Shown here piece by piece: positions 11,012-22,077 of a stretch of 64,000 nucleotides of DNA. The notes beneath the pieces are model-generated. The model had not been told where the DNA came from, did no database searches, and was given only the letters and a program-made list of their open reading frames with translations. The stretch is taken from the NCBI RefSeq assembly GCF_000153345.1, contig NZ_CH724126.1, forward strand, positions 79,854 through 143,853. Reading direction: 5' to 3'. Position 1 is the stretch's first letter. The number at the start of each line of letters is the position of its first letter. The translations under genes and the position numbers were made by a program. Source of the stretch: Neptuniibacter caesariensis. GTDB lineage: Bacteria; Pseudomonadota; Gammaproteobacteria; Pseudomonadales; Balneatricaceae.

Positions 11012-12046
<1,035 letters not shown>

Positions 12047-12426: not shown

Positions 12427-14037
12427 GTGAAACTGGAAGGCCTATCGATACAAACCAAAGTCAACGCGTCTTTATTGCTGGTGTTTTTGATCATCCTGGT
12501 CAGCTCACTGACAGCAATCTATAAAAGCGAATCAGACTTAGTCTCCGAGGTTGTTAAAAAGAACACAACCGATACAGCGGACTCTTACTTCGACAGTATC
12601 AATATACTTATGCTGAGCGGTGCAATGGGTAACAGACAGGCATTGCAACAGAAAATATTAGCCAATCCTGATGTCACTGAAGCACGTATTATCCGAGGGG
12701 ATCTGGTATCCAGTGTTTACGGAGCTGGCACTGCAGATTCAAAAGTAGTTGATGAGTTAGATCGCCGCGCAATGAATGGCGAGCACGTTGTAGAAGAGTT
12801 CAATGACGAGCAAGGCCATCGCCTTACTGTTGTTACACCGATGAAATCCCTCCCGGATTACAAAGGCACTAACTGCATGTTATGCCACCAGACCGAAGAA
12901 GGCGCTGTTCTTGGCGCTGTTCGCGTTACCTACTCCTTCGAAAATCTGGATAACACCATTCAAAAGAACCTAATCAGTGTAGCCGTTACAGAGATCATCC
13001 TGTTTATTGCAGGCTTAGTACTGGTTAGCTTCATGCTGCGCCACCTTGTGGTTCGCCCAATTAAAAAGATGGGCAAGACCATCAATACGATCCACGAAAA
13101 TTCAGACCTTAAATTACGTATCGATGTAAATTCAAAAGATGAAATCGGTATGATGTCTACCTCTCTGAATACTATGCTGGAAGATTTCCACACCAGCCTG
13201 AGCAAGGTAAGCGCAACCGTTCACCAATTGAGCACTTCTAGTTCATCGATTAATAGTATTGCTGACATGGCGAATAGCGCCGTCAATAACCAGCAGATGC
13301 AAACCAGCGCGGTTGCTTCAGCGATGGAGCAGATGGAAGCCGCTACGCGCAGTGTAGAAGGCAGCGCTGAAAATACCGTGTCTGCATCTGACCTAGCCCT
13401 ACAACAGAGCCAGGACGGTACTGTAATCACTGACCAGGCAATCAATGCTATCGAGGCTTTGAAACAGAATATCGATAAAGCACTTAGCGTTATTAACAAG
13501 CTTGATGAGCAAAGCCAGAGCGTAGGCACGGTTCTGGAGGTCATTCAGAAAATTGCTGAACAAACCAACCTGCTGGCACTTAACGCTGCGATTGAAGCCG
13601 CACGAGCTGGGGAACAAGGTAGAGGCTTTGCGGTAGTGGCTGACGAAGTCCGTACACTGGCGAGCAAAACCCGTAACTCCACCGAAGAGATCAACGCAAT
13701 CATCGAAGAGCTGCAACAGGATGCCCGTGATGCAGTTGCAGTGATGGATGAAGCACATCAAAGTGCTGAAGCCGGTGTTGATAAAGTTCAGGAAACATCC
13801 GACGCACTGACAAAAATCGCTGAAGAAGTTCGTATGATCAACGACATGAATCATATGGTTTCATCCTCAGTTAAAGAGCAAACAGAGATGGCAAGCAGTG
13901 TAGAGGCCAGCGTCCATGAGATTGCTCAAACCGCAGAGCATACCTCTGAACGCGCAGGCAAGTTGAACCAGGTAGCTCACGAGCTCAATACTCTGGCAGG
14001 CCAACTGGAACATATGGTGCAGAAGTTTAAACTCTAA
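12427..14037 (+). CDS. Methyl-accepting chemotaxis protein with periplasmic haem c motif
   Basis: Chemoreceptor of 536 residues: transmembrane helix (about 14-32), periplasmic domain (about 35-178), second helix (about 182-204), HAMP (about 205-258) and signalling domain with tip [20 protein letters not shown]. The periplasmic part contains CMLCH (Cys150, Cys153, His154), a c-type haem attachment motif, followed by the stretch [13 protein letters not shown]. This type of sensor is known from PAS-like haem c receptors in Geobacter and relatives, so it may respond to redox state, oxygen or nitric oxide. The GTG start is set by GGAG seven bases upstream. Monocistronic, ended by a strong terminator. 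Confidence 0.92.
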
Positions 14038-14052
14038 CAGCTCACATATATG

Positions 14053-14082
14053 AAAAAGCCCCGCCATGAGCGGGGCTTTTTT
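14053..14082 (+). terminator. Intrinsic terminator of the haem chemoreceptor gene
   Basis: GCCCCGC / GCGGGGC stem with a five-base loop, flanked by five A and six T. A near-ideal rho-independent terminator 15 bases after the stop. Confidence 0.92.
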
Positions 14083-14165
14083 GTAGCAACTGATCAAAAA
14101 TAAGGAACCTATTCTCACAGAAACAGTCAGTGATACTGGAACTGACCTCAATATGGAGAATAGCT

Positions 14166-14825
14166 GTGTACAAAAGCCCGCTACTGGCCAGCCTGGCGTT
14201 ACTCATCCCCTCTTTAAGCAATGCAGCCACCTTAGATGTAACCGTTTTAAATCCCGACCAATCTGGCGTGCAGGGCATGATTCTTTATGCCGAACCTCTT
14301 GAACACTCTATTCCTGATCTACCCAGCCAAAAAATAGAGATTGCCCAAAAGGACAGGGCTTTCGCTCCTTACATCACCGTTATGCAGCGGCAGGATGAAG
14401 TTGAGTTTAGTAACCAAGACGATTTCACCCATCATATCTATTCAATATCTGGCGAAAACCGCTTTTCTTTCAAGCTCAGATCAGGCCAGTCTAAAGCCCT
14501 GGAAGGGCTCAGCAACAATGCAGGCTCTGAAACCATCGCGATGGGCTGCAATATCCATGATTGGATGAGCGGTTTCATACTCATCCTTGATACGCCTTAC
14601 TTCACAGAAACAGGTAAAAATGGCCAAGCAACTTTAAAACTGCAACAAACGGGCAAATATCGCCTAACCTTATGGCATCCCCAGTTAAAAACCACTGACA
14701 ATCGATTAACTAAAACAATCAACCTGGCTAATGACCAAAATATCACTTGGTCTTTAGCTAACCGCTTCGAAGTTGTGCCTCCTCAAGCCGACGAAGAAGA
14801 CTTTGAGTTTTTAGATAAGTACTAA
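14166..14825 (+). CDS. Periplasmic cupredoxin-like protein (methylamine utilization protein-like)
   Basis: 219-residue exported protein: signal peptide MYKSPLLASLALLIPSLSNA, then a cupredoxin-type domain. Putative type 1 copper ligands are His89 or His90 (DFTHHIYS), Cys128, His131 and Met134 (MGCNIHDWMSGF). The last third continues with a carboxypeptidase-regulatory-like beta segment (GKYRLTLWHPQL). Proteins like this are often labelled methylamine utilization proteins by similarity, without proof. GTG at 14166 is chosen because GGAG lies seven bases before it; the frame is open upstream to 14130 but has no signal there. It ends two bases before the EAL gene, so they form one operon. Confidence 0.82.
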   Translation: MYKSPLLASLALLIPSLSNAATLDVTVLNPDQSGVQGMILYAEPLEHSIPDLPSQKIEIAQKDRAFAPYITVMQRQDEVEFSNQDDFTHHIYSISGENRFSFKLRSGQSKALEGLSNNAGSETIAMGCNIHDWMSGFILILDTPYFTETGKNGQATLKLQQTGKYRLTLWHPQLKTTDNRLTKTINLANDQNITWSLANRFEVVPPQADEEDFEFLDKY

Positions 14826-14827
14826 GG

Positions 14828-17191
14828 ATGGAATTGCGGACCATGGGCAGCTTAAAAACCAAGATTTTTATCTTCTTTGTTACCTTGCTAATGGTTGTAC
14901 AAGCGACATCCCTATGGACAGTCTACAATGCCAACACCAAACAGGGAGAGGAGCAAATTCAGTCCCGGCTCAATGCCGCGAAGTCGGTGTTTGAGACCCA
15001 GTACCAGCAACGTAGTTATTATTTACAGGCTTTTGCTGAAACGGCCGCTAAGGATTTTGGCCTTAAAGAAGTATTCGGCGCCGATCAACGTAGTTTCCTT
15101 ATCGCGCTGAATAACCATCGTAAACGTATTGACGCTGATATCGCGGTTGCCGTGGATCAAAATCAGTCAATTGTCGGACAACTCATTCGCAGATCACCCA
15201 ATGAAAAGATCAGCCTTGGTCCGGACCAAGGTAATAGTTTCCCAACCCCAGATTGGTTTACAGGTGAGAAGGCGTTTACCCATCTATACCAGCAAGGCCA
15301 ACAGCTCTACCAACTCAGTTTTGCGCCGTTGAAAAGTGGCCAACAAATTGTCGGCTGGATAGGTTATGGCTACCAGATCAATGCAGTACTCGCTCAGACA
15401 TTTGCTGATATAACCGGGTTGAGTATTGAATTCATGCTTGAGCAGACGTCTGATAACTGGCGCTCTATAGCCGCTGCGATTCCCAGCAATTATCCCCTGG
15501 CCCCTAGCCAGCAGGGGCTGAATATTCTCCAGAATACTATTCCTGAAAACCTGATCGCTACCCAGATCAAGGTCGGTGTGGTCAGTGAGCAGCCTCTGCA
15601 CGTCACCATTTTTGGTTCTCGTTCAAACCTACTAGAGACCCTTCAGGATAACTGGTGGCACCTACTGGCATTGGAAGGCGGCATGGTTTCAATCGTACTG
15701 TTTGCAGCTTACCTACTTGCTGGGGGTATTACCCGCCCGGTGAGAAAGCTAGTCCGTCAGGCCCAGTTTATTGCACGCGGGAACTATGAAAGTAGCGTAG
15801 ATATAGTAGAAAAAAATGAATTGGGACAACTGGCTAACGAATTCAATCAGATGCAGAAAGCAGTATTGGTTCGCGAACAGAAAATCAGCCACCAGCTAAA
15901 ATTCAACAGCCTGACCAACCTCCCTAACCGGTACTCACTACTACAAACGCTGGACGACAAGCTGAAAGAACAAGGCTCCGCGTTCAGCCTCCTCCATCTA
16001 GATATTCGCCGCACCCGAACGGTTAACGACACGCTGGGTTATCAGATTGGTGACCTTATGATTCAGGAGGTAGGAAAAAGATTAGTCAGACTTAATGCAA
16101 ACAGTCAGACCTTTCACCTTGATGGCGATGAATTTGCCATGATTATTGAAAGCGCTAACCTAAGCGAACTTGCGAACTGGCAGACTAAAATAGAAGAGGC
16201 GATGGATGAGCCCTTATGTGGTGAGGATACTCTGCTTCACCTTCAATTGCAGATCGGATTTGCCAGAGCCCCTGACGATGCAAAAGATCCGCAGCAACTG
16301 TTACAGAAGGCAGATACTGCGCTGAGCCATGGTAAGCGAGAACAACGTAACTTCCAGCAATATCTCACAGAGATGGATGCTGATGCGAACCGCAGGCTAA
16401 GCTTGGTAAATGATCTGAAAATAGCGATTGAGCAAAATCAGCTCTGCCTTTTTTATCAGCCTAAACTCGATCTGAACTCAGGAAAAATTCATCACCTCGA
16501 AGCACTGGTTCGCTGGCAGCACCCGCTCCAGGGCATGATTCCACCCGATGCCTTCATCTCTATTGCCGAGCAAACAGGTCAGATCGATGCACTAAGTAAT
16601 TGGGTATTAAACGAAGCAGCTTGTCAGTATCGAACCTGGTCAAACCAAGGCTTAGATCTTTCCATCGCAGTAAATATTTCGGCAGATAATCTTAAAAACC
16701 AACGATTTACAGAATCACTACGAAAAATATGGAGCCAACACCAGTTACCCGCCAACGCCCTCTCTTTGGAAGTGACTGAAAGTGCCGTTGTAAGCGATCC
16801 GGAAAGTGCAATTCATATGCTCTGCGAGATCAGGGACCAAGGGATCAAGCTTTCCATTGACGACTATGGAACCGGCTATTCTTCATTAGCGCAACTCAAA
16901 CAGATGCCTGTTTCTGAGCTTAAAATTGATCGTTCATTTGTGGATAAAGTACATCTCAGCTCCGATGATCAAATTATTGTTCGCTCAACGATTCGTATGG
17001 CACACGATATGGGCCTCAGTGTTGTCGCAGAAGGCATTGAAGATAAGGACACGCTATTATGGTTACAAGAACATGATTGTGACTTAGCACAAGGGTACTT
17101 TATCAGCAGGCCACTGCCCGCAGATGAATTTAGCCAGTGGTTACTATCATCTGATTTCAATCCGACACAGCTAAGGGTATTACATGGCTAG
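14828..17191 (+). CDS. Membrane GGDEF/EAL protein, likely c-di-GMP phosphodiesterase
   Basis: 787 residues: transmembrane helix (about 12-32), a 240-residue periplasmic sensor, a second helix (about 277-297), HAMP (about 298-352), GGDEF domain (about 360-515) and EAL domain (about 535-780). The cyclase site reads DGDEF (432-436) instead of GGDEF, so synthase activity is doubtful. The EAL site is intact: EALVRW (558-563), NISADN, LEVTES, IDDYGTGYSS, LKIDRSFV and VAEGIED. Net c-di-GMP breakdown is therefore expected. It is flanked within two bases by the cupredoxin gene and overlaps the next gene by eight bases. Start at 14828 has AAGG immediately before it; an ATG at 14843 is an alternative. 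Confidence 0.92.
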   Translation: MELRTMGSLKTKIFIFFVTLLMVVQATSLWTVYNANTKQGEEQIQSRLNAAKSVFETQYQQRSYYLQAFAETAAKDFGLKEVFGADQRSFLIALNNHRKRIDADIAVAVDQNQSIVGQLIRRSPNEKISLGPDQGNSFPTPDWFTGEKAFTHLYQQGQQLYQLSFAPLKSGQQIVGWIGYGYQINAVLAQTFADITGLSIEFMLEQTSDNWRSIAAAIPSNYPLAPSQQGLNILQNTIPENLIATQIKVGVVSEQPLHVTIFGSRSNLLETLQDNWWHLLALEGGMVSIVLFAAYLLAGGITRPVRKLVRQAQFIARGNYESSVDIVEKNELGQLANEFNQMQKAVLVREQKISHQLKFNSLTNLPNRYSLLQTLDDKLKEQGSAFSLLHLDIRRTRTVNDTLGYQIGDLMIQEVGKRLVRLNANSQTFHLDGDEFAMIIESANLSELANWQTKIEEAMDEPLCGEDTLLHLQLQIGFARAPDDAKDPQQLLQKADTALSHGKREQRNFQQYLTEMDADANRRLSLVNDLKIAIEQNQLCLFYQPKLDLNSGKIHHLEALVRWQHPLQGMIPPDAFISIAEQTGQIDALSNWVLNEAACQYRTWSNQGLDLSIAVNISADNLKNQRFTESLRKIWSQHQLPANALSLEVTESAVVSDPESAIHMLCEIRDQGIKLSIDDYGTGYSSLAQLKQMPVSELKIDRSFVDKVHLSSDDQIIVRSTIRMAHDMGLSVVAEGIEDKDTLLWLQEHDCDLAQGYFISRPLPADEFSQWLLSSDFNPTQLRVLHG

Positions 17192-18410
17192 TCGATGGCT
17201 ATTGCTTCTCTCTCTGACATGCCTTCCTGCCAATGCAATGGATATTGAGTGGAAGGGGGTTGCTGATATGCGTATCAGCCACTCATCCGGAATCCAAAGC
17301 TATGTCAGCGGTCAAACCGGAAAGCTGCAGAACTCCCCTGGCGGTGATCTCTCTTTAGGGCAACTTGGAGTAGCGTTAAATCTGGGCATTAATGACCAAA
17401 GTAGCATCGCGGTTGTAGGGAACAGTTTTATCGACGATGAAAAAAACTCAACAGGACTGACAGAGCTTTTCTACCAGCGCTCAGGCCTACCGAATGAAAA
17501 CGGCCTTCGGCATGGAATGCGTCTAGGTATGTTTTATCCACCTATCTCCCTGGAGAATCGAGCAACCGCCTGGTCACCCGCTAACTCCCTCACCCCTTCG
17601 ACTATGAATAGCTGGATTGGTGAAGAGATTCGCACCACAGGCTTTGAATACACAGCGGAATGGTTGGGAAAATTCAGGCAAGCCGATTATGACCTTAAAT
17701 TAAGCACAGGCCTATTTACGATGAACGATACTGCGGGAGCGATGCTTTCGTGGCATGGCTGGGGACTTAGCTCCCGACAATCCGTTTATGGTGAAGGGTT
17801 ACCGATTCCGCAGACACCGGCGCAAACAGGCATTCTCTCTGTTCAAGCAAAAGAGTCAGATCCTTTTCACGAGGGGGATGACAGGCTCGGATATTATCTC
17901 AATGCGGAGTATCTACTGAAAAGGAAGCTACTCTTACAGGCGGGGTATTACGACAATAATGCGACGCCTTATGTTGAAACCGATGGCCAGTATGGTTGGA
18001 ATACACAATTCACTTATGCTGGTTTTCGTTGGCGGTTGAACAAGCAATGGAGTCTGATGGGCCAATTAATGCAAGGTTCTACCCTGATGCAGTCTCCACA
18101 GCGGGTTAATGTCGTCGATAATGATTATCGAAGCGGCTATCTGACACTAAGCTGGCATAATAAACCGCACAGCATAAATGCACGTTTAGAAGAGTTCTCT
18201 GTAACCGATCTTGATCAGACACCCGGAGATAATAACGATGAGTATGGCAAAGCATTCACGCTTAGCTACCGTTACCGACTGGATAAACAGTGGTTTTTAC
18301 TCAGTGAATTAAACTGGATTGATAGTAATCGAGCGGCCAGAGCCTACAGCAACGAAAATACCAGAAAGATAGAGCAGCAACTTCAGATGGCACTCCGATA
18401 CTATTTTTAG
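17184..18410 (+). CDS. Predicted outer-membrane beta-barrel protein
   Basis: 408 residues with a short signal peptide (SRWLLLLSLTCLPANA) and no lipobox. The rest alternates polar and hydrophobic residues in strand-like blocks, and the protein ends in RYYF, the terminal aromatic typical of outer-membrane barrels. I do not recognise a named family. It overlaps the EAL gene by eight bases, and AAGGG six bases before the ATG supports the start. It closes the cupredoxin/EAL/barrel operon. Its stop lies five bases from the stop of convergent dctD with no terminator between, so converging transcripts would overlap. Confidence 0.75.
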   Translation: MASRWLLLLSLTCLPANAMDIEWKGVADMRISHSSGIQSYVSGQTGKLQNSPGGDLSLGQLGVALNLGINDQSSIAVVGNSFIDDEKNSTGLTELFYQRSGLPNENGLRHGMRLGMFYPPISLENRATAWSPANSLTPSTMNSWIGEEIRTTGFEYTAEWLGKFRQADYDLKLSTGLFTMNDTAGAMLSWHGWGLSSRQSVYGEGLPIPQTPAQTGILSVQAKESDPFHEGDDRLGYYLNAEYLLKRKLLLQAGYYDNNATPYVETDGQYGWNTQFTYAGFRWRLNKQWSLMGQLMQGSTLMQSPQRVNVVDNDYRSGYLTLSWHNKPHSINARLEEFSVTDLDQTPGDNNDEYGKAFTLSYRYRLDKQWFLLSELNWIDSNRAARAYSNENTRKIEQQLQMALRYYF

Positions 18411-18415
18411 CCGAT

Positions 18416-19780
18416 TTACTTAAAGTCCTTTTTATCCAAACCGTACTTCTTCATTTTATCGTATAACGTCTTACGCGGCAGGCCCAGGGAGGTCAGGGTT
18501 TCTTTAATGGAACCGGCACAACGAGACAGCTCAGCCTGGATCAGCATGCTTTCGAACTGATCTACCTTTTCAGGCAAGGTCATATCCGTTTTACCGTTCA
18601 TCTCAGTAATCGGCTTATTTTCAAAATCGAAAGTGCACCCCTCTCCCAACAAAACATAACGTTCGGCCAGATTCCGTAACTCTCGCACATTTCCTGGCCA
18701 ATCGTGAGTCATCAGGCTGTGTAAACGTTCAGCAGAAAGAAGCGGCACCTCGCGACCGTACTGGGAAGAAGCGATCAGCGCAAAATGTTGGAAGAGAAGA
18801 CTGATATCTTCTCTGCGTTCACGTAATGCAGGGATATCCAAACGGACAACATTCAGGCGGTAATAGAGGTCTTCACGAAATTCGCCCTTTTCCGCAGCGT
18901 CTCGTAAATCCACTTTAGTGGCTGCGATGATTCGAATATCCAGTGGGATTATCTCATTGGCACCCAGCCGCTCGATTGCACGTTCTTCGAGGACCCTGAG
19001 CAATTTAATCTGCAGTGTCATCGGCATGCTTTCGATCTCATCAAGGAACAAGGTTCCGCCATTGGCATGCTCAAACTTGCCAATACGACGGGCCTTAGCG
19101 TCAGTAAACGCCCCCTTTTCATGACCAAACAACTCAGACTCGATCAGATTCTCGGGCACCGCCCCACAGTTAATCGCAACAAAATTCTGATCCCGGCGTT
19201 TGCTATGTTCATGTATGTAGCGCGCCATCAGGTCTTTACCTGTGCCCGTCTCACCCAATATCAGAACATCTGCAGGCGTATCCGCAATGGCATAAACCAA
19301 ACTTCGCACCTGGGCAATGGCCGCAGTATTGCCGATCAAACGAGGCCCCGGCGCACTTTGTGCTTCAAGCTCTTGTTTCAGGCGCCGGTTTTCAATAACC
19401 AGATTGCGCTTTTCCACTGCACGCCTTACAACATCGAGCATCAGCTCGGAAGAGAAGGGCTTTTCAATAAAGTCGTACGCACCATCTCGCATAGCCCCTA
19501 CCGCCATCGAGATATCACCATGACCTGTAATAAGAATCACCGGTAAGGTTGAGTCATGGGCAACTACCCATTTCATCAACTCAAGTCCGTCCATACCTGG
19601 CAGGTTGATATCAGTGACCAATATACCTGGCCAACCACCATTGATAAGGTCGACAGCCTTTTCAGCAGTATCTACTGACGTGACTTCATAGCCAGCTAAT
19701 TCCAGCGCCTGACTGGCTGCCAGTCGTATATGTTCTTCATCATCTACCAGCAAAATGGGTAGCGAACTCTTATCACTCAT
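18416..19780 (-). CDS. dctD: Sigma-54-dependent response regulator DctD
   Basis: Activator of C4-dicarboxylate transport genes, 454 residues: receiver domain (about 7-125; phosphoacceptor Asp in LVTDINLPGMDG), AAA+ domain (about 150-375) with Walker A GETGTGKD, and a Fis-type helix-turn-helix at the C-terminus (GSIKETLTSLGLPRKTLYDKMKKYG). The sigma-54 contact loop reads GAFTDA (223-228) rather than GAFTGA. DctB lies 20 bases upstream in the same operon. The sigma-54 promoter of dctPQM at 12.1 kb is the natural target. Confidence 0.92.
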   Translation of the reverse strand: MSDKSSLPILLVDDEEHIRLAASQALELAGYEVTSVDTAEKAVDLINGGWPGILVTDINLPGMDGLELMKWVVAHDSTLPVILITGHGDISMAVGAMRDGAYDFIEKPFSSELMLDVVRRAVEKRNLVIENRRLKQELEAQSAPGPRLIGNTAAIAQVRSLVYAIADTPADVLILGETGTGKDLMARYIHEHSKRRDQNFVAINCGAVPENLIESELFGHEKGAFTDAKARRIGKFEHANGGTLFLDEIESMPMTLQIKLLRVLEERAIERLGANEIIPLDIRIIAATKVDLRDAAEKGEFREDLYYRLNVVRLDIPALRERREDISLLFQHFALIASSQYGREVPLLSAERLHSLMTHDWPGNVRELRNLAERYVLLGEGCTFDFENKPITEMNGKTDMTLPEKVDQFESMLIQAELSRCAGSIKETLTSLGLPRKTLYDKMKKYGLDKKDFK

Positions 19781-19800
19781 CTAAATTCAGAATTCCACGG

Positions 19801-22077
19801 TTATCCAATGGTGTTTACAGACACATTAGCAGGAGGCTCAGCCCGAGGTAAACAGATCCTAAACTGTGCGCCACCATCAGGATGGTTAAGCACAGACAGT
19901 GCACCGCCCATACTCTCAATAATTCGATGAGAGATAGAGAGACCTAAACCCAAACCCTGGCCTGCTTTTTTGGTGGTATAAAAAGGTTCGAATACCCGGC
20001 CCAGATCCTCCTCAGGAATGCCTGAACCATAATCCCTGACCTGTAGACATATCAAGGTTTTGCCCTGTTCCAGAGTTACATCCACTGCGGGAGCTGGATG
20101 CCCCTCCATCGCCTGCAGTGCATTACTGATAAGGTTTACCAACACCTGCTCCAGTCGTACGGTATCTCCCATCACATAAACATTCTCAAGACTGTCCGGC
20201 CAGTTAACATCCGCATGCACTTTACTCAACCGGCCATACATAATTGACATGGCGCCATCGCGGACATTTTTCAAACATACCGATTCAGGTGTTCCAGATG
20301 TCTTACGAGAGAATTCTTTCAAAGGATGGATGATCTTAGCCATACGCTCTGTGAGCTTACTGATCTCGAGCAGGTTATTCTCAGCCGTCTCGCTTTTGCC
20401 AATCTCCATAAATGCTTTGGCATTATCAGCATAGGTACGAATAGCCGTCAGGGGCTGATTCAGCTCATGGTTAATCCCTGCCGACATCTGCCCAAGTACC
20501 GCCAGCTTAGCCGTCTGAATCAATTCATTTTGTGTATTCTTATGTTTCTCTACTTCATCTTTTAACTTGCTATTGGCATCCGTTAGATCAGCGGTTCGCT
20601 CTTCAACACGATGCTCTAACAACTCTCTCGCATGCTGCAGCTCCTCTTCATACTGTTTACGCTGGGTAATATCGTGGATCGTCACCAAAAAACGCTGCAC
20701 AGGACCATGCGGCATATAGCCAATAATCAATTCGATTGGGAACGAAGAACCATCCTGACGAAGCCCTTTCGCTTCGGTAAACAGTTCATCCTGACGGTCT
20801 TTCTCTTCTGCAGTCAGGTGTTGCCAGCAGAGGGCACGGTCCGCTTGCGATAGCAGTTTGCTGAAGTACTGGAACTTTATCGCTTCCTCTTTATAGCCGA
20901 AAAGCTTTTCAGCCATCAGGTTCATACTTTCAACTCTGCCTTGATCATCCAGTGTGATCAAACCAGCCTGCGTATTATCAATAATCGCTCTGATGCGTTG
21001 CTCACTCTCTTCCAACGCCTGCGTTTCAAGGCGTTTAAAACGAGCCCGCTCGCGTTTAATTCGCTGCCGGGTCGAAAGGAACAAGACCAGCAACACCAGT
21101 GCAATAAAAATGAATCCGGTCGTTAAACCGGTATAGAACATCCGAGCTTGTACAGATTTTGTGCTCGCCAGTACCACCACCGTCAATCCACTATCCTCTA
21201 GCTCTCGACTAAGCTGGAGAAATTCGCGGGTTTTAATGCCGTCCAATGCTTCATTTTTGATTTTCGTCCCATCAACCAGGGTGATAAGAGAGCCACCCGC
21301 GTCATAGGGTTCTTTTTCGACAATATCCAACGCAGATAACTGATGATCACCATAGCGAAGGCTTTCTGCGATACGCTGAATATCATCTTGTGAAAGGGGC
21401 TTCAGCGTTCTGAACTTCCAATCACCGCGGGTTGAGATAAAGATCACCCCATCCTCATCCGTTACAAGGATATCCAGATCGGGATCAGTCCAATCAGACT
21501 CAATTTCATTAAGGTCAATCTTAACGACGACAACCCCAATAATCTGGCTGCGTTGATAGACCGGGTAGGAGAAATAGTAACCGCGTTTCTTAGACACGGT
21601 CCCTAGCGCAAAATAGCGTCCGGAGCGCCCTTTAAGGGCGTCTTGAAAATAGGGCCTAAATGCATAGTTTTTACCGACAAAAGACCGTGCCTCAGCCCAA
21701 TTACTCGCAGCAATGGCTGTGCCTTCGGTATTCATCAGGTAAACGTCCGCAGCATTAATCGAGTTATTAACCTGCTCAAGGTAAACACTAGCCTGCCCCT
21801 TGAGAAACTCATCTTGCTGCGTTGTCAAAGCTTCAATCAAAATTGAGTGTGAAGAAAGCAATGCGGGAAGATCTTTATATCGATCAAGCTTCTGCTGCAA
21901 ACTCAGAATATAGCGATTTAAATCTGCACTAGAGCGCTGCTGAAGCTCAGTATACCCCTGAGAACGGCTCACCAGTGACGTTTGCCCTACCACCAGCACA
22001 AATGCCAGGCTGAGAACGATAAAAAACATCAGGCGATATCTGCGCCAGCGTGATCGAGGGTCAGTGGACATACTCAA
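19801..22077 (-). CDS. dctB: C4-dicarboxylate sensor histidine kinase DctB, with an extra PAS domain
   Basis: Sensor partner of DctD, 758 residues. Transmembrane helix (about 15-35), periplasmic double-Cache region (about 45-310) with YFALGTVSKKRGYYFSYPVY, second helix (about 318-338), a cytoplasmic PAS domain (about 360-475), a coiled coil, a HisKA domain with phosphorylated histidine in SAGINHELNQPLTAIRTYA, and an HATPase domain (NLISNALQAM, DYGSGIP, GLGLSIS). Classical DctB proteins of about 600 residues lack the PAS domain, so a second, intracellular input is possible here. Confidence 0.92.
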   Translation of the reverse strand: MSMSTDPRSRWRRYRLMFFIVLSLAFVLVVGQTSLVSRSQGYTELQQRSSADLNRYILSLQQKLDRYKDLPALLSSHSILIEALTTQQDEFLKGQASVYLEQVNNSINAADVYLMNTEGTAIAASNWAEARSFVGKNYAFRPYFQDALKGRSGRYFALGTVSKKRGYYFSYPVYQRSQIIGVVVVKIDLNEIESDWTDPDLDILVTDEDGVIFISTRGDWKFRTLKPLSQDDIQRIAESLRYGDHQLSALDIVEKEPYDAGGSLITLVDGTKIKNEALDGIKTREFLQLSRELEDSGLTVVVLASTKSVQARMFYTGLTTGFIFIALVLLVLFLSTRQRIKRERARFKRLETQALEESEQRIRAIIDNTQAGLITLDDQGRVESMNLMAEKLFGYKEEAIKFQYFSKLLSQADRALCWQHLTAEEKDRQDELFTEAKGLRQDGSSFPIELIIGYMPHGPVQRFLVTIHDITQRKQYEEELQHARELLEHRVEERTADLTDANSKLKDEVEKHKNTQNELIQTAKLAVLGQMSAGINHELNQPLTAIRTYADNAKAFMEIGKSETAENNLLEISKLTERMAKIIHPLKEFSRKTSGTPESVCLKNVRDGAMSIMYGRLSKVHADVNWPDSLENVYVMGDTVRLEQVLVNLISNALQAMEGHPAPAVDVTLEQGKTLICLQVRDYGSGIPEEDLGRVFEPFYTTKKAGQGLGLGLSISHRIIESMGGALSVLNHPDGGAQFRICLPRAEPPANVSVNTIG

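Follow-up and report, generated by a model that had tools for sequence, protein, structure and literature searches.

A cupredoxin gene, a receptor gene for a predicted c-di-GMP phosphodiesterase and an outer-membrane barrel gene form a conserved operon in Neptuniibacter caesariensis and its relatives

Several signalling systems of the bacterial envelope, such as NspS-MbaA, TorT-TorS and LuxP-LuxQ, have an exported partner that is encoded beside a transmembrane receptor, and in all three this partner is a solute-binding protein. YfiBNR is organised in three layers, outer-membrane, periplasmic and c-di-GMP enzyme, and its components include an OmpA-like lipoprotein and a cyclase. In PrrC/SenC (Sco) with PrrB/RegB, a copper-binding envelope protein is thought to tell a sensor kinase the redox state. 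For most GGDEF-EAL receptors, we know of no cue. For MHYT-GGDEF-EAL proteins, a passage of PMC5845226 puts copper forward as the sensor of O2, CO or NO in the control of c-di-GMP.

The operon described here lies in a window of 64,000 nucleotides of Neptuniibacter caesariensis (the whole stretch of DNA analysed), and according to the ORF calls it consists of a cupredoxin gene, a receptor gene and a barrel gene, all on the + strand within 14166-18410. It shares with NspS-MbaA, TorT-TorS and LuxP-LuxQ the exported partner beside a receptor, but the partner is a cupredoxin, accompanied by a barrel and, across its relatives, by exchangeable outputs. It is three-layered like YfiBNR, but with a porin-like barrel, an EAL enzyme with a degenerate GGDEF domain and a periplasmic cupredoxin. 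It resembles the PrrC/SenC case in pairing a predicted copper protein with a sensor, whereas copper fold, sensor and outputs all differ. MHYT, finally, is built into the enzyme as its membrane part, and Pfam gives no MHYT match in this receptor. The features are as follows:

14049..14085, + strand: terminator-like hairpin and T run, separating the operon from the chemoreceptor gene before it (RNA folding at -24.1 kcal/mol, z -6.75)
14166..14825, + strand: cupredoxin, 219 amino acids, probably exported (ORF, AlphaFold model, Foldseek)
14430..14432, + strand: codon of the predicted copper ligand H89, followed by H90 (invariant in 81/81)
14547..14567, + strand: predicted ligand loop C128-x2-H131-x2-M134 (invariant in 81/81; fixed in all groups)
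14784..14822, + strand: conserved C-terminal tail of the cupredoxin, Q207 to Y219, a possible docking peptide
14828..17191, + strand: receptor, 787 amino acids, with periplasmic dCache_3-like sensor, HAMP, degenerate GGDEF (DGDEF) and EAL
14927..15652, + strand: periplasmic sensor region, residues ~34-275, flanked by two hydrophobic segments that the sequence shows (dCache_3 match weak)
16409..17113, + strand: EAL domain, residues 528-762 (Pfam E 1.3e-74; catalytic residues invariant in 42/42 aligned relatives)
17184..18410, + strand: outer-membrane barrel, 408 amino acids, ending in RYYF (AlphaFold model, Foldseek)

The ORF coordinates place a 2-base gap between cupredoxin and receptor genes and an 8-base overlap between receptor and barrel genes, just as the earlier note had described the three genes. 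The hairpin at 14049-14085 is absent from the list of a simple terminator scan, and a simple sigma-70 scan of the + strand upstream of the operon found no site. The chemoreceptor gene directly upstream (12427-14037, + strand) carries a periplasmic CxxCH motif (CMLCH), possibly a heme site. It was rejected as a member of the operon because the strong terminator-like hairpin intervenes and because close CxxCH-bearing relatives stand upstream only at L002 and L003; in ten Shewanella loci the upstream chemoreceptor is a different one and lacks CxxCH, and L041 and L046 have yet another, with CVDCH. The downstream neighbour (18416-19780) is convergent to the operon. The region is also flanked by genes for an NtrC-type response regulator, a Cache-PAS histidine kinase and a DctP-type TRAP solute-binding protein (18416-22077 and 11012-11995, both on the - strand).

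First of all, the 219-residue protein has a cupredoxin fold in its AlphaFold model (pLDDT 88.3), whose Foldseek matches are PDB cupredoxins: a nitrite reductase domain, pseudoazurin, plastocyanin and amicyanin. From the last three, which it resembles in fold, it differs by an extra beta domain and the C-terminal tail, and the identity is at most 23% among the 50 Foldseek matches listed. Pfam gives only weak matches, in the C-terminal part and under the cut-off, and the sequence search for solved homologues returned three chance-level matches (E 1.5 or worse). The start codon is GTG, an alternative GTG 36 bp upstream would give 231 amino acids, and the reading of the N-terminus makes export probable. 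H89, H90, C128, H131 and M134 sit in the translation at the residue numbers given earlier. The predicted type 1 copper ligand set is His, Cys, His and Met, with H89 39 residues ahead of C128; this distance and the short C-x2-H-x2-M loop are what we take to be the amicyanin spacing, and the copper site predicted from H89, C128, H131 and M134 is amicyanin-like. All four ligands are invariant in an alignment of 81 proteins, whose loci were found partly with peptides that include the copper site, and they are fixed in 182/182 compared loci (at least 70 bits), in every output group.

The relatives of this cupredoxin are frequently named 'methylamine utilization protein' in RefSeq, and 9 of the 18 plasmid records bearing one use this name. 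A role in methylamine metabolism was rejected, since no methylamine dehydrogenase genes were found among the scanned window neighbours (Pfam, NCBIfam) or in the annotated plasmid neighbourhoods, which sets these loci apart from amicyanin. An anti-phage role was also rejected, PADLOC giving no match for the cupredoxin or the barrel.

The receptor has three Pfam domains above the cut-off: HAMP (296-345), GGDEF (361-508) and EAL (528-762). Its dCache_3 match at residues 42-205 reaches 22.3 bits, just under the cut-off of 25.7, which is passed in the relatives L116, L117, L119 and L128 but not in L122. In the 42-row alignment, E558, N616, E648, D678, D679, K699, E735 and Q755, the catalytic residues of the EAL domain, are invariant, whereas the exact GGDEF motif occurs in only 3 of 42 relatives. 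The DGDEF cyclase motif (residue 432) and the intact EAL site noted earlier are both present. Since the GGDEF motif is degenerate and the EAL site is intact, the receptor is probably a c-di-GMP phosphodiesterase; an active diguanylate cyclase is unlikely for the same degenerate motif.

The barrel protein does end in RYYF as claimed earlier, and its AlphaFold model is a 16-strand barrel (pLDDT 94.1). Porins and further barrels, AlgE among them, make up the 50 Foldseek matches listed, with identities of 9-14%; the best are porins, with a TM-score by query length of at most 0.58. The protein reaches the cut-off of no Pfam or NCBIfam model, and the sequence search for solved homologues gave one chance-level match (E 0.62). 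On the model, the protein would be a 16-strand porin-like barrel.

The conservation of the operon was followed in a targeted set, the best 80 of 99 cupredoxin relatives from a cupredoxin scan of species genomes, which covers Neptuniibacter, Colwellia, Shewanella, Pseudoalteromonas, Thalassotalea, Psychromonas, Vibrio and others. Within these best 80 of 99, the cupredoxin singles out a Neptuniibacter MAG as nearest named relative (73% identity). In 80/80 of these loci the cupredoxin gene is followed by the receptor gene, so that chance grouping or misreading was rejected; an ORF-based test with a 400-bp limit finds it in 79/80, the remaining one being cut by a contig end. Moreover, the genome of N. 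caesariensis has 57 EAL matches above the cut-off in 3.92 Mb, and a random neighbour would thus rarely be an EAL protein. The barrel is kept in 74/80 loci. Among the six without it, L005, L007 and L055 run into contig ends and L078, L079 and L081 are the Vibrio loci, 3/3 of which are barrel-less. The possibility that the three families are rarely adjacent elsewhere, raised in the earlier note, was checked in the targeted loci and in the surveys below, and the grouping held in both.

Such an arrangement could also be a gene order that was simply inherited, without functional interplay. Within the 80 targeted loci the order is indeed mostly inherited, and distance correlations are uninformative on this point: they give no special coevolution of cupredoxin and sensor (partial r 0.16, other parts held fixed) and were dropped as evidence. 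Yet the flanking genes are varied, with 38 families among 64 first-upstream genes and 41 families among 66 first-downstream genes. The order itself is changed in L122 (barrel, cupredoxin, kinase) and L121 (receptor, barrel, cupredoxin), and dissimilar barrel families and different outputs surround the same cupredoxin, so that mere inheritance is very improbable. The three genes very probably make up one functional module centred on the cupredoxin.

The wider surveys show how far this module extends. A cupredoxin profile search matched 45/229 genomes of the class (E at most 1e-5), and further searches matched 37/299 genomes of the phylum and 42/145 of the order (E at most 1e-12). The survey comprises 108 stretches, of which the class search supplied 35 (mostly stronger matches, most of those with E above about 1e-11 being left out) and the phylum and order searches 73; its counts leave out the N. 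caesariensis locus and two fragment rows of genome G463. A receptor lies within 400 bp of 63 of the 78 survey cupredoxins that score at least 100 bits, and the output behind it is exchangeable: EAL in 50, nucleotidyl cyclase in 11, histidine kinase in 1 and Ser/Thr kinase in 1. In L121, L123 and L125 (at least 100 bits) the receptor is nearby but beyond 400 bp or in pieces, and it is absent nearby in 12/78, of which L217 and L220 are near contig ends and L250 has receptor-like pieces. Pfam searches on six receptors found a class III cyclase in L116, L117 and L119, a histidine kinase in L122 and a Ser/Thr kinase in L128 and L140, each with a HAMP and a Cache match (both under the cut-off in L122, Cache under it in L140). 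With more distant cupredoxins receptors are few: 3/24 loci at 70-100 bits, all Ser/Thr kinases, and 3/6 below 70 bits, all EAL proteins without a sensor match. The tight link is therefore confined to the closer family.

Some distant cupredoxins have neighbours of their own. In L147, L148 and L149 (39-44 bits), the cupredoxin directly precedes a GGDEF-EAL protein of 910-921 amino acids without a sensor match, possibly a separate pairing of a cupredoxin with a c-di-GMP enzyme. In L129, L130, L131, L133, L135, L136 and L144 (74-98 bits), it adjoins a protein of 770-838 amino acids, and several of this group continue with a protein of about 700 amino acids and then apparent radical-SAM and FAD proteins. 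In addition, L220 and L277 (a Comamonas aquatica plasmid), from different hosts, both have a gene for a DUF4394 protein immediately before the cupredoxin gene.

The barrels are as exchangeable as the outputs. A barrel candidate lies within 4.5 kb, on either strand, in 63/78 survey loci of at least 100 bits, and three types are found: the window type (like 17184-18410), DUF3034 and a third family of about 300 amino acids, named bar116; L128 has a Porin_5 protein in addition. Kinship among the three families was rejected, as no mutual profile similarity is seen (hhalign probability 1-6%). An aromatic last residue, usual for outer-membrane barrels, closes 70/86 window-type, 31/39 DUF3034 and 9/11 bar116 proteins; DUF3034 and bar116 are barrel candidates from sequence, the structure model being of the window type. 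The window type occurs in 3/229 class and 9/145 order genomes, 11 distinct genomes together, and 11/11 have a cupredoxin match on the contig that bears the barrel (at most 3 kb away in ten, about 8 kb in G556). The claim that the barrel is a partner gains support from this, because the window type was found only in cupredoxin-bearing genomes. DUF3034 occurs in 26/145 order genomes, 23 of them with a cupredoxin within 7.2 kb, while G299, G534 and G619 have no cupredoxin match at 1e-12.

The tail of the cupredoxin also varies with the barrel. Members of the core group share its conserved residues (F213, F215, Y219), yet the AlphaFold model gives it low confidence. Among survey loci of at least 100 bits, minus frames running to the stretch end, a Tyr stands among the last three residues in 23/25 cupredoxins with window-type or bar116 barrels versus 3/38 with DUF3034, and in 4/15 at barrel-less loci. 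The Fisher test gives p 7e-12 with related sequences treated as independent, which makes the association a lead only. Since the C-terminal Tyr goes with the barrel type, docking of the tail to the barrel is suggested.

The DUF3034 branch has one more gene. A truncated haemoglobin gene lies near 37/38 DUF3034 loci of at least 100 bits, and none was found at the other 40 survey loci of at least 100 bits. The five globins tested are Bac_globin, and all 38 that were read (including one from a 90-bit locus) keep a G..M...H segment, which we take to hold the proximal His. A lipobox-like N-terminal motif, of the export type and unusual for the truncated haemoglobin family, is present in 26 of these 38 globins (L118, L126, L227 and 35 other loci). 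The N. caesariensis genome has one Bac_globin, on a different contig from the operon. On annotated plasmids, two of Caballeronia and one of Novosphingobium, the cupredoxin is likewise grouped with DUF3034, a group 1 truncated hemoglobin and a protein with an EAL or cache domain.

In the reverse direction, a profile built on the receptor's sensor region (E at most 1e-15) matches 18 places in 17/229 class genomes, and at 15/18 a cupredoxin lies within about 1 kb of the receptor gene; nine of the 18 places supplied rows to the profile, and of the other nine, 6 are adjacent to a cupredoxin. At the three exceptions, GGDEF-EAL proteins of G117, G171 and G037, no cupredoxin was found in the 10.5-kb stretch. 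Such places would suit an arrangement in which the cupredoxin and the barrel, joined by the globin in one branch, serve mainly as a redox or metal-handling pair of the envelope, and the receptor senses a small molecule alone and adjusts lifestyle. It would also be in line with loci where cupredoxin and barrel occur without a nearby receptor (such as L207, L210, L227, L245, L260, L261 and L265) and with the known Cache ligands, which are small molecules as a matter of general knowledge and in a part of PMC5845226. Against it, the receptor adjoins the cupredoxin even without a detected barrel in 12/78 loci, and the same sensor type is kept with the cupredoxin across four outputs. On the whole, a redox or metal-handling pair with an independent receptor is rather unlikely. 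Because the copper ligands are fixed in every output group and the outputs swap behind the same sensor, a tie between the cupredoxin and the periplasmic sensor is supported; an output enzyme that is swapped while these two outer parts stay together is what would be expected if they cooperate.

For such cooperation the following mechanism is proposed. The outer-membrane barrel would hold or feed the cupredoxin, possibly by way of its C-terminal tail, and the environment would change the state of the copper site, be it in redox state, in copper occupancy or through binding of a small molecule. The receptor's periplasmic domain, dCache_3-like and in contact with the cupredoxin, would read this state and alter the output through HAMP, here most likely c-di-GMP breakdown by the EAL domain, so that the signal would run from the copper protein inward. 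In other lineages the same front end would drive a nucleotidyl cyclase, a histidine kinase or a Ser/Thr kinase, and the cupredoxin would be the hub that stays with its copper ligands intact while outputs and barrels swap. For the specific chain in which the state of a barrel-held cupredoxin is read by the periplasmic domain, the balance for and against is even. The likely cue is copper, the redox state or a gas, for instance NO or O2; with a globin gene present in one branch, gas or redox chemistry is an appealing choice.

If copper itself were the matter, the cupredoxin could be a periplasmic copper sink or chaperone for copper homeostasis, with a receptor that responds to toxic envelope copper. 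The type 1 copper ligand set would fit this, as would the copper-linked two-component systems that are generally known. Nevertheless, no copper export or resistance gene was recognised among the operon neighbours inspected, part of which were run against Pfam, and the globin and porin partners give no hint of it, which leaves copper homeostasis an improbable account. The interpretation in the earlier note is partly supported, namely in the grouping, the tie between cupredoxin and periplasmic sensor, and the barrel as partner. The module is also wider than it was drawn there: its outputs and barrels can be exchanged, the receptor is missing at some loci that have the other two genes, and one large branch has a globin gene.

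Full-text searches of open-licence PMC papers found no description of the cupredoxin-receptor-barrel association, and an earlier description elsewhere is possible. The conserved pairing of cupredoxin and receptor despite swapped output and pore points to a mode of environmental sensing that has yet to be described. In its most general and still speculative form, it might be a sense organ of the proteobacterial envelope, in which a barrel-held type 1 copper protein, joined in one branch by an exported truncated haemoglobin, would act as first messenger and report outside redox or NO/O2 to a dCache receptor, with exchangeable c-di-GMP, cyclic-nucleotide, two-component and Ser/Thr-kinase outputs. 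For the receptor, comparative genomics names a partner, the cupredoxin, which stays next to the sensor through changes of output enzyme and barrel, and both partner and cue are therefore directly testable. A role is also suggested for the proteins that RefSeq calls 'methylamine utilization protein' and for DUF3034, and envelope copper, redox or NO chemistry could thereby be linked to the control of biofilms.
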